Source: Leptolyngbya sp. 'hensonii'
GTDB lineage: Bacteria; Cyanobacteriota; Cyanobacteriia; GCF-001939115
Direction of reading: 5' to 3'
DNA length: 64,000 nt
Assembly (NCBI RefSeq): GCF_001939115.1
Contig: NZ_MQTZ01000043.1
Location: 62,001 to 126,000, forward strand
Positions 53,200 to 59,593 of the stretch are shown one piece after another (position 1 is the first letter of the stretch; the number at the start of each line of letters is the position of its first letter). The translations under genes and the position numbers were made by a program. The notes under the pieces were generated by a model that was not told the DNA's origin, searched no databases, and worked only from the letters and a program-made list of their open reading frames with translations.

Positions 53200-53892
53200 T
53201 TAAAGCAACCCCGCATCGATTTGTGACCGGTCTGCTTGGATACAGTCGGGGGTGTCATTCCCTGGATAGTTCACTTGGGATGTAACCGGGAAAGCCGTCA
53301 TCAGAGCGGCCTCATAGGGGCGCAACAGGGACTGCAGCACATTGCCCTGGGTTGTAGTTGGAGCCAACCAGGTTGCATAGTCCTGGGGTTGGAGAATAAC
53401 GGGCATGCGATCGTGGATCGGCTTCAGTAAGGAATTAGCCTCTGTTGTCAGGATGGTACAGGTGTTGATCGCCTCCGTTGTTCCATTGCCCTGCCAGCGT
53501 TCCCATAACCCAGCAAAAGCGAAAGGACTGCCATCCTGCATCCGAAAGTAGAACGGCTGCTTACCCGTTTTTGTCCGTTGCCATTCGTAGAAGCCATCTG
53601 CCGGAATCAGACAACGACGTTGCCGGAAGGCCGATCGAAAAGAGGGCTTTTCGGCCACCGTTTCGGAGCGAGCATTAATCAGACGGGCTCCCATCTGCGG
53701 GTCTTTGGCCCAGGCTGGAATCAAGCCCCAGCGGAGTAATTTGCAGTAGCGACCAGACTCAGTTTGGAGAATCGCCGCGATCGACTGGGTTGGCGCAATG
53801 TTGTAACGCGGGGATAGGTCAGGAACTGCTGCCAGTTGAAAGACCTCGGCCAGAACTTCCGGAGATGGGCTCAGAGTGAATCGTCCACACAT
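53200..53892 (-). CDS. SRAP-family DNA-protein crosslink protein (YedK/HMCES)
   Basis: 230 residues from ATG 53892, so that the catalytic cysteine is residue 2 (MCGRFTL). Further family residues are YNIAPTQ, LLRWGLIPAWAKDP, INARSETVAEKPSFRSAFRQRRCLIPADGFYEWQ (active Asn and Glu) and HDRMPVIL (active His). The N-terminal Met must be removed to expose Cys2, which forms a thiazolidine with abasic sites in single-stranded DNA. An ATG three codons earlier (53901) would block this and is rejected. Single gene. Confidence 0.95.
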   Translation of the reverse strand: MCGRFTLSPSPEVLAEVFQLAAVPDLSPRYNIAPTQSIAAILQTESGRYCKLLRWGLIPAWAKDPQMGARLINARSETVAEKPSFRSAFRQRRCLIPADGFYEWQRTKTGKQPFYFRMQDGSPFAFAGLWERWQGNGTTEAINTCTILTTEANSLLKPIHDRMPVILQPQDYATWLAPTTTQGNVLQSLLRPYEAALMTAFPVTSQVNYPGNDTPDCIQADRSQIDAGLL

Positions 53893-53975
53893 ACTCCCCA
53901 TCCTAGCAATCCCAAAGCCACTTCGGTCAGGTGTGTTAATCTGGCGGTTGAAAATACCCTTATCAAGTTTCAGCC

Positions 53976-55226
53976 ATGCCCCTGGTTACCCCCCCGATAC
54001 TGGCTTTCCAGAAGCTTCTGAATTCTTCGATCGTGGCTCTTCTCCTAGGTTCAACTGCCCCGGTGTCCACAATTCCAGAACCTGGGATTTCCGTGGCAGG
54101 AACCTGTCAGGAAGCTCGCAAACCCTTATTTGCTGTCTTTGGGGGGGGTGGGGCTCCTTCCTACAATGAAATCGCGCTCGAAAAAAATGTGCTGTATTTT
54201 CAGCGCACCCTGAAAGCCATGGGCTATGACCCCAAAAACGCGGCGATTTTCTTCGCCAATGGTAACAGTGGTGAGGCGACCGTTCGTTATATCGACCCCT
54301 CCTCCGGTCAACAGAAATTTAAGGTGCCCCAAATTCCCAATCTATCAGGAGCCTCCAGCCCGGATAATCTGCGCCGCCTGATGCAGCAGACCGCCAAGCA
54401 GATGCAAACAGGCGATCGTCTCTTTTTCTACTTCACGGGCCATGGTGGGCACAATCGCCGGGATGAGGATAATAATGTGATGCTGCTCTGGCGTGACCAG
54501 CCGATCTCTGTGCGGCAGTTTACCCGCCTCCTGGATCAGATGCCGCAGGATACGACCTTTGTCGCCATGATGGCCCAATGCTATTCTGGGGCCTTTGCCA
54601 ACCTGATTTATGAAGGGGGAGATGCCACTCGTCCCCTAGCACCCCAGAGCCGATGCGGATTCTTTGCCACTATTAAGACTCGGCCCTCCGTCGGTTGTAC
54701 TCCTGCCGTGAATGAAGCTGATTATCGGGATTACAGTTCCAGCTTTTTTGCCGGACTCAGTGGCCGATCGCGCACCGGAACAGCCGTAGCCTCCGCTGAC
54801 TACAACCGGGATGGGCGAGTGTCCTATGCAGAAGCCCATGCCTTTGCCAAGGTCGATGAACAGACCACTGACCTGCCCATCTCCACTTCAGAAGTCTGGC
54901 TCCAGAAAGACGTTACCGAGAAAGAGGCAGACAAAATTTTGGGGCAACCGATCGTCCAGATTTTGCCTAGTGCCCGTCCCGAACAGCGGTTTGTTGTCGA
55001 GTCTCTGGCTCGCAAGTTCAGCTTCAACCTGCGCGAGTCGTTTCTGGGCAATCTGCGTAAGCTTAACCAATCCCGATACGGCAGTGAGGAAAATCAGGCT
55101 TACCTGATCCGGCTGCAATCTGAGCTGGTTAATATCAGTGTGGAGAAACAACTCCGCAGCAAAGGCGATCCGGCCAAGACATCTGACTTCGATCGTATCC
55201 TTAAATGCGAAGGTGGCTCCTGGTAA
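53976..55226 (+). CDS. Secreted caspase-like protease with an EF-hand
   Basis: 416 residues. A hydrophobic N-terminal signal (LLNSSIVALLLGSTAPV) precedes a caspase/legumain-type fold: AVFGGGGAPSYNEIALEKNV, FFYFTGHGGHN (catalytic His156) and TFVAMMAQCYSGAFAN (catalytic Cys202). An EF-hand loop, DYNRDGRVSYAE (275-286, D-x-N-x-D-G-x5-E), then suggests calcium binding. The last 110 residues (SLARKFSFNLRESFLG) are helical and unassigned. Cyanobacterial caspase homologues (orthocaspases) are mostly arginine-specific; here a signal peptide points outside the cytoplasm. The specificity pocket cannot be read. A palindrome directly after the stop may end transcription. Confidence 0.8.
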   Translation: MPLVTPPILAFQKLLNSSIVALLLGSTAPVSTIPEPGISVAGTCQEARKPLFAVFGGGGAPSYNEIALEKNVLYFQRTLKAMGYDPKNAAIFFANGNSGEATVRYIDPSSGQQKFKVPQIPNLSGASSPDNLRRLMQQTAKQMQTGDRLFFYFTGHGGHNRRDEDNNVMLLWRDQPISVRQFTRLLDQMPQDTTFVAMMAQCYSGAFANLIYEGGDATRPLAPQSRCGFFATIKTRPSVGCTPAVNEADYRDYSSSFFAGLSGRSRTGTAVASADYNRDGRVSYAEAHAFAKVDEQTTDLPISTSEVWLQKDVTEKEADKILGQPIVQILPSARPEQRFVVESLARKFSFNLRESFLGNLRKLNQSRYGSEENQAYLIRLQSELVNISVEKQLRSKGDPAKTSDFDRILKCEGGSW

Positions 55227-55348: not shown

Positions 55349-55373
55349 CCGTCCACGCGCTTTGGTTGCTGCT

Positions 55374-57017
55374 ATGCAAATCACTCCTCGATCGTCTGAC
55401 CCTATTCGCCCCCTGACTCTCGATGCGCCCATTTCTGTGGTAACACTCCTGGAGGATCGGGCGCAGATCAAACGGATCGGAAATGCCGATCTGGAACCGG
55501 GACTATGGCGGTTACAGGTGGAGCGGGTGGCCCCGGTACTGTCAGATAAGTCCCTGCGGGCAGAGTTTCAGCGAGATTATCCGGGTGCCCGTATTGATGA
55601 TGTCCGGGCTAGACGACAGATGCTGGTAAAAGAAGCCGATCGACCGGCTGATATTCAGGCCCTACAATCAGAGGCTCGATCGCTGCTGCGGGCATTTGAG
55701 CAAGCGGGTGAGGACCGGTCCCAGCGAGAGTTCTGCTTCGATCGGTTGCAAGACATCCTGGAAAGGAGCTTGCAAGAGTTGCCGATGGATGCGGCCTGGG
55801 GACAGGTGGACCCCCGTTCCTGGCGAGAACAGCTCCAACCCCTGTTTCAGCGCCTGCGGGAATTGCGATCGGAGGTGCAAACAACCTATCAGACCCAGAA
55901 GGTTCTGAGGGTTCAGCTTCAAGATCTCCTGACCCGTTTGAAGGCGTTATATCGTCCTGACCTGGTTTACGTGGCTGCGATTGAAGCAGATGTGATGATT
56001 GCCCAGGCTGGCAACTATGGCATTGCCTTCGATTATGTCGTTCCAAATGCTTTGTGGCGACCTTATCACCAGGCCCGACTGTTGCCAGGAGGGAGCCGGG
56101 GCGATCGCCTGGAAGAAATCCTCTCGCCCTTGCCCCCAGCCCCCTCCCCTGAATCCTGGTGGCTGTCTTTCCAGGTCGATGGCTGCGTCTGGCAGCGCAC
56201 CGGAGAAGATTGGCAGGATGTGGAGCTGATTTTTTCCACAGCCAGAGCCTCTCTGGGAACAGAACCACCTTTGCTGGCTGATGACCTGTTGAATGTTCAG
56301 GAGAAAGCTAAACAGGTTGTGATTCAGGCTCGTGACCAGCAGGTGCAGACCACTGGCATGGGGGCTGGTGAAATCCCGGATACGGTGGAATTGCCTGGTG
56401 TGGATGATGGGGGAGAGGTGCGGAATCTGCGTTCTGCGACCCGGACTACGATTCCTGCTGATGGTCAACCCTATCGAGTGCCTCTCTTTTCCTTTGAGAC
56501 TCCGGCAGAGGTCGAATTCGTCCTGATGCCAGAGTTGTCCTGCCAGGTCATCTTTAAAAGTGTCCAGGTAAACACGGCTCAATTTCCCCTTCTGGCTGGG
56601 CCAGTAGACTTGGTGCGGCATTCTGGTTTTGTGGGTCGAACTTCATTGCTGTTTATCGCCCCCGGAGAGAAGTTTGCCCTCGGTTGGGGACCAGAGGAGT
56701 CTCTGCGGGTGCAACGCACCCAGGAGGAGAAAAAAGACCAGGATCTGCTGACCCGCTGGCGATCGGTGACAACAACCGTGAACCTATTCCTCTCCAACAT
56801 TGGTGCTGAGCCTCGGCGGATCAAAACCACTGAACGAGTGCCATTGTCAGAGCTGGAGCAAGTGAAAGTCGAAGTGATGGCAGCAGAGACTACCCATGGG
56901 GTTAAGCCCGATGAAAATGGCTTTTGTACCTGGACCTTTAACCTGGAACCTTACTCCCAGCAGCAGGCCACCCTGGTCTACAAGCTCTCCTCTGCTCCCG
57001 ATGTGCAAGGACTTTAG
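55374..57017 (+). CDS. MuiA/DUF4139 family protein
   Basis: 547 residues from ATG 55374 (MQITPRSS). The N-terminal beta domain (ISVVTLLEDRAQIKRIGNADLEPGLWRLQVERVAPVLSDKSLRAEF) is followed by a long coiled coil (about 85-190) and a C-terminal DUF4139-type beta domain (WLSFQVDGCVWQRTGEDWQDVELIFSTARASLG, LVRHSGFVGRTSLLFIAPGEKFALGWGPEESL). The family was first noted as mucoidy inhibitor A; biochemical role unknown. No signal peptide. Three copies of related palindromic repeats occur in this stretch of the window, two directly upstream. Confidence 0.8.
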   Translation: MQITPRSSDPIRPLTLDAPISVVTLLEDRAQIKRIGNADLEPGLWRLQVERVAPVLSDKSLRAEFQRDYPGARIDDVRARRQMLVKEADRPADIQALQSEARSLLRAFEQAGEDRSQREFCFDRLQDILERSLQELPMDAAWGQVDPRSWREQLQPLFQRLRELRSEVQTTYQTQKVLRVQLQDLLTRLKALYRPDLVYVAAIEADVMIAQAGNYGIAFDYVVPNALWRPYHQARLLPGGSRGDRLEEILSPLPPAPSPESWWLSFQVDGCVWQRTGEDWQDVELIFSTARASLGTEPPLLADDLLNVQEKAKQVVIQARDQQVQTTGMGAGEIPDTVELPGVDDGGEVRNLRSATRTTIPADGQPYRVPLFSFETPAEVEFVLMPELSCQVIFKSVQVNTAQFPLLAGPVDLVRHSGFVGRTSLLFIAPGEKFALGWGPEESLRVQRTQEEKKDQDLLTRWRSVTTTVNLFLSNIGAEPRRIKTTERVPLSELEQVKVEVMAAETTHGVKPDENGFCTWTFNLEPYSQQQATLVYKLSSAPDVQGL

Positions 57018-57589: not shown

Positions 57590-59182
57590 TTAAAATGTAA
57601 ATGTGGTGCGAATTACCCCAATCACCGCCCCTGCATTGCGGGCATCGTGATTGGGGGCCGTGAGCCAGATCAGGCCAGGAGTAATGGTGATATTGTCATT
57701 CACCCGGTACTGGTAAAATCCTTCCACATGGAGAGAGGTGTCTCGATCGACCGAGGTAATGGTGGTACCCGCAGCTAGGGAGCCATTGTTGGCCACCGTA
57801 ATCGTTGGGAACGTTGCCCCTGCGACTCTGGGTTCCACACCCACGATAATGCCAGCCAGGTTTCCTTCTTTACCCAGATCGGGGAAGGCCAATCCCACCG
57901 CATAGGACCAAATGTCCGCATCCCCCAGGCCAATCACCCGCGCTGCCGTATAACCGCCCCAGGCATTGACGACAAAATTTGGGCTAACCTGAAAAGACCC
58001 TTGAATACCATAGGAATTGGTGACAGTGGGTAGCCCGGTGGTGAAGGCCAGGTTCGATCGCAGGCTGCCAGTGCCCGTATTGGTGTTGTAGGCATTGATA
58101 TAGGCAAAGGCCAGGTTAAATCGATCGCTCGGTTTAAATACAATCTGGCCGATCGTGCCGTAGGAGCCATTGAACAGACCATTGCCAGGAGCTGGATTAT
58201 TGGGAGTGCCCGCCAGATACCCCAGACTGATTTCCAGATAGTCGTTGAATTCGTGACGGATGCCAATACCTGCACCACTGACATAGTAGTAGATGGAATT
58301 CCGGGTCCCAAAGTTAGAGAGGGCACCGCTGCCTCCATCCCCGTCTAGGAAAGGGTTGAGGGTGAGGGCAAAGTCATCGGTGGCCCCAGCGTTCCCTTCC
58401 AGCACAACGGTGGTGCGATCGCCGATCGGGAAACTGTAGAGCAGCGCATCGAGACTGACTGTGCTGCTACCCGCAGCAAAGGGACCTGAATCAAATCTCA
58501 GCACCCCTTCCGGCAATTGACTGTTGGTTCCTGCCGGACTGGAGAAGTAGTTCAGGTTAATGGATTGAAGTCGGGTTCTGAGTAAATCTCGACCGTTGAA
58601 ACTGGTATCCAGGTTGAGACGAGTCCGATAGCCCAGCGTTGTAATTCGGGGAATGTCAGTCTGGTTAATGTCCTGCCCGGTTGCCACACCCGTTACAGCA
58701 AAAATTGCTTCTCCAAATAGTTTCGTTGTGGTTGAAAATTGTTGGGCTTCCAGGGTTGCTGTCCGGGCTTCTAAGGCATCGACCCGCCCCCGCAGAGTAG
58801 CCAGCTCAGTGGCAAATTCTTCCTGCAGTCGTTGCAGGGTCGCCAGATCCTCTTTCGTTACCAGATTGGCCGTAGCCGAGGCAATGAGCTCATTTACCCG
58901 GTCCATACAGGCATTCAGACCAGCCGCAAATTCGTAGCGGGTCATGGCCCGATTCCCCCGATAACTGCCATCGGGATAGCCTACGACGCAACCGTAGCGT
59001 TCAACCAGGGATTGTAGAGCCTGAAATGCCCAGTCAGTGGGCTGTACGTCCGATAGCTGGGAGACAGAATTGATCTGGTCTTCAGCTAGCGGATCAACCG
59101 ATGCCGCCACGGATGGAACTGCATGAAAAGCCAGCCCGGTTAGAATAGCAGATGAGATCAACAAAGATTGAACCTTTAACAT
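57590..59182 (-). CDS. SLH-OprB iron uptake porin
   Basis: 530 residues from ATG 59182 (MLKVQSLL). The signal peptide ends near VPSVAAS. One SLH domain (about 45-95, SDVQPTDWAFQALQSLVERYGCVVGYPDGSYRGNRAMTRYEFAAGL), a coiled coil (KEDLATLQRLQEEFATELATLRGRVDALEARTATLEAQQ) and a C-terminal OprB-like beta-barrel of about 350 residues ending IGVIRTTFTF, with the terminal Phe typical of outer-membrane proteins. Cyanobacterial members let inorganic ions, including iron, across the outer membrane. The gene is divergent from the FTR1 permease, with a Fur box between them. Confidence 0.92.
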   Translation of the reverse strand: MLKVQSLLISSAILTGLAFHAVPSVAASVDPLAEDQINSVSQLSDVQPTDWAFQALQSLVERYGCVVGYPDGSYRGNRAMTRYEFAAGLNACMDRVNELIASATANLVTKEDLATLQRLQEEFATELATLRGRVDALEARTATLEAQQFSTTTKLFGEAIFAVTGVATGQDINQTDIPRITTLGYRTRLNLDTSFNGRDLLRTRLQSINLNYFSSPAGTNSQLPEGVLRFDSGPFAAGSSTVSLDALLYSFPIGDRTTVVLEGNAGATDDFALTLNPFLDGDGGSGALSNFGTRNSIYYYVSGAGIGIRHEFNDYLEISLGYLAGTPNNPAPGNGLFNGSYGTIGQIVFKPSDRFNLAFAYINAYNTNTGTGSLRSNLAFTTGLPTVTNSYGIQGSFQVSPNFVVNAWGGYTAARVIGLGDADIWSYAVGLAFPDLGKEGNLAGIIVGVEPRVAGATFPTITVANNGSLAAGTTITSVDRDTSLHVEGFYQYRVNDNITITPGLIWLTAPNHDARNAGAVIGVIRTTFTF

Positions 59183-59593
59183 CACGATCCTGCCTCACAC
59201 AAATGGATAACGTTCTCTTCCAAAAACCTTCTCAGGGGAAAACCCCATCATAAAATCGCACTTATTTATTGACAGTAAGTATCAATAGCATAGAGATTAT
59301 ATTCAATTGGCCTCAGAAACAACAAACTGCATCGGAAATCTTAGAAAACATCCTGGCAACCTCAGGACAGGGTTGACCTCGGCTTTTTGCATCCATAGTT
59401 TCACAGCTTTTTAAGCAAGCAGCAATCCCCTCCCCTGGTATGTAAAAACCTGCATTGAGCCTCCCAAGTGGTCAATCCTAGGTAGTAGGGCGGGACTGAA
59501 GAAAATATGATAATGATTATCATAATTGATCTACGGTTAAATTTTCAGCCCCAATGTCAGAATAGGGTTATGCATTTCTCAGTCGCCTCAACT
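59183..59593. promoter_or_regulatory. Porin-FTR1 divergent promoter region
   Basis: 411 bases, AT-rich, with the Fur box at 59509-59530 near the FTR1 side. No gene recognised; ATG codons at 59507 and 59513 open a frame into FTR1 but overlap the Fur box and lack a ribosome site. Confidence 0.6.
59509..59530 (+). promoter_or_regulatory. Fur box
   Basis: GATAATGATTATCAT followed by AATTGAT. The first 15 bases match the Fur consensus GATAATGATAATCAT at 14 positions. It is 64 bases before the FTR1 start, a position that allows Fe-Fur to block transcription. Confidence 0.8.

Follow-up and report, generated by a model that had tools for sequence, protein, structure and literature searches.

A probably exported caspase/legumain relative of cyanobacteria with a conserved putative calcium loop inside its protease fold

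The most likely product of the gene at 53976..55226 (+ strand) of the window, by which we mean the whole 64,000-nucleotide stretch of DNA analysed here, is an exported protein related to caspases and legumains, with a conserved putative calcium loop built into the protease fold. The gene is an intact open reading frame of 416 aa, its product a candidate cysteine protease of clan CD (the caspase/legumain fold) that is probably exported. The explanation which joins the observations below, and to which we give a probability of roughly 0.6, is that of an exported clan CD protease at the edge of family C13 with a His/Cys dyad and a loop that very likely binds calcium and is proposed to act as an export-linked switch of stability or activity.

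A tblastn search returned matches at 56 loci. Five were set aside (L006, which is the same gene; L018 and L019, the broken gene of genome G215; L059 and L061, both truncated at the end of a contig) and three identical duplicates were removed, leaving 48 distinct homologues, all of them cyanobacterial. L056 was kept among the 48 and is cut at its C-terminus, and loci L092-L097, found later, lie outside these counts. The alignment and profile A1 comprise 46 of the 48 homologues (L024 and L032 were left out).

The putative catalytic residues are His156 (54441..54443, +), in a GHG motif, and Cys202 (54579..54581, +), in the motif QCYSG, which align with the metacaspase motifs GHG and CHSG, respectively. 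The first-pass annotation of this DNA had picked out both as caspase motifs, and each is present in 48/48 homologues, as are Cys227, Cys241, D275 and E286. From fold, motif and invariance we infer that His156 and Cys202 form a catalytic dyad.

The AlphaFold model (46 sequences) has a mean pLDDT of 83.3 and a pTM of 0.82; the five models span mean pLDDT values from 66.6 to 83.3. Confidence by block is moderate around the catalytic Cys (66) and around α4 (72), 82-91 in the calcium loop and under 50 across residues 1-46. The ends of strands E148-158 and E194-201 fall on or beside His156 and Cys202, so that the model has the clan CD arrangement of a His at the end of β3 and a Cys at the end of β4; together with the structural matches and the dyad in 48/48 homologues, this bears out the earlier reading of the protein as a caspase-like protease, at the level of a candidate with a predicted clan CD fold. 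By VIA-align, metacaspase 9 (Z 18.9, rmsd 2.8, 222 aligned) and legumain (Z 18.3, rmsd 3.3, 214 aligned) resemble the model about equally. The best Foldseek match is an asparaginyl endopeptidase (E 7.8e-7), in an alignment that is loose, given its TM of 0.38 and rmsd of 16.4 over 473 columns. A C-terminal helical region (residues 304-412; 54885..55211, +), confident in the model, ends in a conserved CExGSW tail. Two conserved cysteines, Cys227 (54654-54656) and Cys241 (54696-54698), occur in 48/48 homologues and a third, Cys411 (55206-55208), in 47/48, the single exception being a homologue cut by its contig; if the protein is exported, the three might pair in disulfides.

Among Pfam families the window protein scores best against C13 (legumain, PF01650), just below the cut-off (21.2 bits against 22.8, E 2.3e-4). 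C14 (PF00656) is likewise below its cut-off (19.8 bits against 21.4; 20.6 bits in the genome search), C25 gives a sub-threshold 15.2 bits, and NCBIfam returned sub-threshold matches only. Over 46 family members, matches at E ≤ 1 were obtained with C13 in 36, C14 in 32 and CHAT in 17; three of ten homologues scanned pass the C13 cut-off (L012, 26.7; L015, 23.6; L021, 23.2) and none of the ten passes that of C14. A search of 59 genomes of the phylum with PF01650 gave a match at E ≤ 0.001 in four and a match above the cut-off in none. Searched against PDB sequences with phmmer, the window protein finds weak metacaspase matches alone (best E 0.0014), and profile A1 finds five matches at E 0.11-0.71, no peptidase among them. 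We therefore file the protein in clan CD, as a divergent branch at the C13 edge and farther from C14.

The residue two positions before the catalytic Cys (residue 200), where metacaspases have their S1 Asp, is Ala in 38 homologues, Ser in nine and Val in one; in the phmmer alignment to PDB sequences, Ala200 faces the Asp of a Candida metacaspase. Because this Asp is missing, the sequence does not lead us to expect cleavage after Arg or Lys. Its replacement in 48/48 homologues and the C14 score below cut-off rule against identifying the protein as a metacaspase, the group with which it had at first been compared.

The N-terminus, which the first-pass annotation had likened to a signal peptide, is hydrophobic and may be one. 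The putative export signal covers about residues 1-42 (53976..54101, +), with one Lys, a hydrophobic IVALLLGSTAPV and a possible cleavage site near SVA/GTC; it was delineated by hydropathy, with cleavage placed by eye, in a segment of pLDDT < 50. By a crude Kyte-Doolittle measure, which speaks to hydropathy only, the 12-mer of highest hydrophobicity is N-terminal in 43/48 homologues, with start codons picked by script; in two of the 43 (L057 and L058) the hydrophobic segment overlaps the first core strand. The five exceptions are L011, L014, L016, L043 and L047; in L011 and L014 the start seems to have been chosen wrongly, as hydrophobic stretches occur farther upstream in the open frames of both. 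By eye, a lipobox-like Cys is seen in a few homologues (L054, L015). Taken as a sequence-based judgement, the protease family is probably exported. Passages of PMC3501461 describe prokaryotic metacaspases whose N-terminal helix could be a signal peptide.

The EF-type calcium loop, DYNRDGRVSYAE, occupies residues 275-286 (54798..54833, +), between α4 and α5, a placement and assignment supported by ligand conservation, an alignment with C14 domains, shuffles and a control model of the C14 paralogue L002. The full 12-residue loop that had been noted in the same chain is thus confirmed: it fits the strict EF pattern and is the sole strict match among the window's 149 stop-to-stop frames of at least 100 codons. 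A chance match is ruled out by composition-preserving shuffles of the protein, 30 of 100000 of which contain the strict pattern, and by retention of the ligands in 48/48 homologues. By position, the homologues keep D275 (48), N/D277 (48), D279 (46, with N in two), G280 (44), V/I282 (48) and E286 (48); loop positions 1, 3, 5 and 12 are D, N or E in 48/48, and residues 278 and 281 vary freely. Non-ligand positions in and around the loop are equally kept (Y276 and Y284, each 47/48; A287 and H288, each 48/48), so conservation alone is no proof of metal binding. We nevertheless regard it as very likely, from the conservation of the ligands, that the loop at the α4-α5 junction binds one calcium ion.

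The same annotation had called this a canonical EF-hand, which holds for the loop and, in the model, only in part for its surroundings. In the model, the helix equivalent to caspase α4 (residues 256-262, SSFFAGL; 54741..54761, +; from DSSP of the model at pLDDT of about 72-83 and the C14 alignment) ends at residue 262, 12 residues ahead of the loop, and only the exit helix, the predicted equivalent of caspase α5 (residues 284-292; 54825..54851, +), adjoins it. The modelled unit is a loop plus one adjoining helix, an incomplete EF-hand. Pfam EF-hand models give no match to the window protein at E ≤ 1, and EF-hand_5 gives weak matches, with E 0.081 at best, to five of the 46 family members. An added EF-hand domain is ruled out by the position of the loop inside the protease fold, as seen in the model, the C14 alignment and the L002 model; structure prediction, put forward earlier as a check, returned a clan CD fold and a C-terminal helical region, with the loop part of the fold.

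Of 74 cyanobacterial C14 domains sampled, ten also have a strict EF loop at the α4-α5 junction, starting in every case within offsets 192-221 of the sequence extracted; shuffles of the same 74 domains predict 0.04. Five of the domains come from this genome, 29 are the best locus of their genome and 40 were picked by hand, and because the sample is partly hand-picked 10/74 is no unbiased rate. It includes two short sequences (L005 stops before α4 and L149 ends early), and the count leaves out two loop-like stretches at the corresponding position, a degenerate one in L125 and one without the Gly in L167. In this genome, three of the five other C14 proteins (L001, L002 and L003) carry strict loops there: DRDGDGAIAVEE, DRDEDGKISIRE and DEDGDGRISISE. 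The control model of L002 (12 sequences, pTM 0.89) has a helix at 182-193, the EF loop at 197-208 and a helix at 206-220, a complete helix-loop-helix at a place equivalent to the window-protein loop, which indicates that the loop is made from the fold's own α4 and α5.

Beyond C14, the archaeon Methanomethylovorans hollandica has a C13 peptidase (WP_015313957.1; 24% identity over residues 52-291) with a loop, DTNSDGRISATE, at the same place. The peptidase is plasmid-encoded (L098:2524-4938) and has a long C-terminal extension; the archaeal domain, used as a query against plasmids, found itself only, and against PDB sequences the protein gave one match, at E 0.9. A remote relative from another class of the phylum, L075, has the loop DANRDGAITFAE, in a genome listed with 9% contamination. 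Profile A2, built from the loop-bearing C14 domains, matched solved metacaspases and MALT1 in the PDB; among the 19 A2 matches listed we see no solved relative with the loop, as the best stretch of every one lies before it. The arrangement is recurrent and far from universal, 64 of the 74 C14 domains being without a strict loop. A survey of whether it is standard, proposed at the outset, therefore gives a divided answer, and the suggestion that the EF loop makes the protein a distinct type falls: since the same loop recurs in C14 domains and in the archaeal C13 peptidase, the pairing is no new type.

The family itself is patchily distributed. Protein searches found it in 12 of 386 genomes sampled over Cyanobacteriota and in 14 of 59 related genomes, this genome included in both counts. 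Profile A1 matched 37 of the 386 genomes, the matches beyond the family itself being weak and covering part of the catalytic region. Among GTDB contigs, a scan that reaches close relatives only returned 42 loci; by their titles these belong to cyanobacteria or to genera that we take to be cyanobacterial. This patchiness suggests gene loss, and broken copies point likewise, with stop codons in G215 (L018, L073; G215:C55) and separate pieces in G414 (G414:C207). Beyond Cyanobacteriota the searches covered those GTDB contigs, plasmids and viral contigs. The plasmid search gave 13 records at E up to 10, namely the Methanomethylovorans match and 12 weak ones, and 30 pattern stretches in viral contigs yielded one relative. 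This is a stretch 55% identical to residues 240-416 on the viral-collection contig IMGVR_UViG_3300049043_000152 (L103), which may be host DNA.

The protease gene is flanked by a divergently oriented SRAP gene (53200-53901, -) and, on the other side, by a DUF4139 gene (55362-57017, +). Farther along, 57590-59185 (-) encodes an OprB-type porin that includes an SLH domain and is an unremarkable outer-membrane protein for a cyanobacterium. Nine neighbour genes of the window gave no tblastn match at E ≤ 1e-6 among 42 homologous loci, several of which have short flanks. When the flanking frames of 43 loci were compared all against all, the biggest non-gene cluster reached 19/43, and its longest member is a frame antisense to the protease gene; a second cluster of long frames (up to 1133 aa) reached 13/43, and the remaining clusters, among those listed, at most 8/43. 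A conserved gene partner is thus unsupported, as the neighbours are unmatched and, the antisense frame apart, flanking frames are common to at most 13/43 loci. A role in defence is also unsupported, the PADLOC 'caspase' match being E 0.0021 over residues 132-160.

What would the loop do? Free calcium is scarce in the cytosol and plentiful outside the cell, and for this reason a switch of stability or activity is the simplest mechanism. Calcium would tie down α5 and the loop after it: the chain would be slack until exported and would become ordered on reaching the periplasm or the cell surface, with activity or stability coupled to leaving the cytosol. According to passages of PMC4357240, the region of the loop after α5 is among the caspase substrate-binding loops and moves upon calcium binding in TbMCA2. 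Against the joint explanation stand the separation of α4 from the loop, the moderate pLDDT values (66 and 72), the spread of the five models in mean pLDDT, the replacement of G280 in 4/48 homologues, the equal conservation of some non-ligand positions, the lack of a Pfam EF-hand match at E ≤ 1 and the activation of the Microcystis orthocaspase MaOC1 without calcium, reported in passages of PMC7475262.

The main rival to a switch is a permanent structural site, in which calcium would stay bound after export and stabilise the protein as in many secreted proteases. A purely structural site would give the identical sequence picture. It would suit conserved ligands confined to a single loop with no partner EF-hand and a probable export to where calcium is always present, and in gingipains, too, calcium has a stabilising effect from fixed sites (PMC4357240, in part); we hold it to be a serious contender, at clearly less than even odds. 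What speaks for a switch is that the loop adjoins α5 and the loop that follows, a substrate-binding loop in other clan CD enzymes, which makes an effect on activity plausible, and that the same loop is found in C14 paralogues, a comparison made by loop and fold only. The loop might instead be past calcium binding and kept merely as a fold element of the α4-α5 junction. That the model has no complete helix-loop-helix would fit this, as would the loss of G280 in four homologues, the change of D279 to N in two, the near-invariance of the non-ligands Y276 and Y284 and the 64 C14 domains without the loop; yet an acidic or amide ligand at positions 1, 3, 5 and 12 throughout, beside freely varying residues 278 and 281, makes such a relic unlikely.

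Whether the window protein is a peptidase at all may also be asked, as it could be a pseudo-protease or a binding protein attached to the surface. Cyanobacteria do have pseudo-orthocaspases (PMC6426788, in part), and the S1 acid is missing here; those pseudo-orthocaspases, as described in the same passages, are without an intact His-Cys dyad, whereas the dyad is kept in every homologue of our set, and we consider an inactive protein quite improbable. Returning to the switch, a broader form of it would be that at least two prokaryotic clan CD branches, C13-like and C14, share an in-fold α4-α5 calcium switch beside the substrate-binding loop, unlike the four-Asp site of metacaspases, with the exported family acting as a location sensor that is inactive in the low-calcium cytosol and active after export. 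This generalisation is tentative, and we are inclined to doubt it.

As a domain pair the protein is of modest novelty. Of more use is the putative calcium loop that recurs within the fold, which makes the question of calcium in orthocaspases directly testable and fits awkwardly with their published calcium independence, which passages of PMC5756287 ascribe to the want of a p10. If the loop does bind calcium and control activity, the view of calcium independence would be limited to orthocaspases without the loop, and the calcium response of a prokaryotic caspase homologue could be predicted from whether it has the loop. An exported caspase-fold protease of cyanobacteria could, in that event, target the cell surface, secreted proteins or neighbours, and not intracellular cell death.

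Titles and abstract starts of the open-licence literature, among the matches listed, include none on an EF or calcium loop at the α4-α5 junction of caspase homologues; the EF-hand in the passages of PMC10888605 belongs to another protein, and two papers on cyanobacterial and bacterial caspase homologues (PMC8283722, PMC4933709) do not mention calcium. The type I/II metacaspases TbMCA2, AtMC4 and AtMC9 are like the window protein in their clan CD fold, at comparable structural Z. They differ from it in the calcium site, which in TbMCA2 is formed by four Asp residues (173, 189, 190 and 220) with no EF loop (PMC4357240, in part) where the window protein has an EF-type loop, and in having the S1 acid two before the catalytic Cys, Asp211 of TbMCA2 (passages of PMC6426788 and PMC4357240), where its family has Ala, Ser or Val. 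TbMCA2 and AtMC4 are calcium-dependent and AtMC9 is the exception (PMC5756287, in part). Seven archaeal orthocaspases carry an EF-hand motif, among additional N- or C-terminal domains, and so combine caspase domain and EF-hand in one chain as the window protein does, a likeness drawn from the description in passages of PMC6426788 only. The orthocaspases L001-L003 of this genome have the same fold and the same position of the strict EF loop as the window protein; unlike it, they retain the Asp at the second position ahead of the catalytic Cys and reach at least 57 bits against PF00656. With C13 the window protein has the clan CD fold and the His/Cys dyad in common, and the M. hollandica peptidase, which has the loop at the same place, lies over the C13 cut-off.
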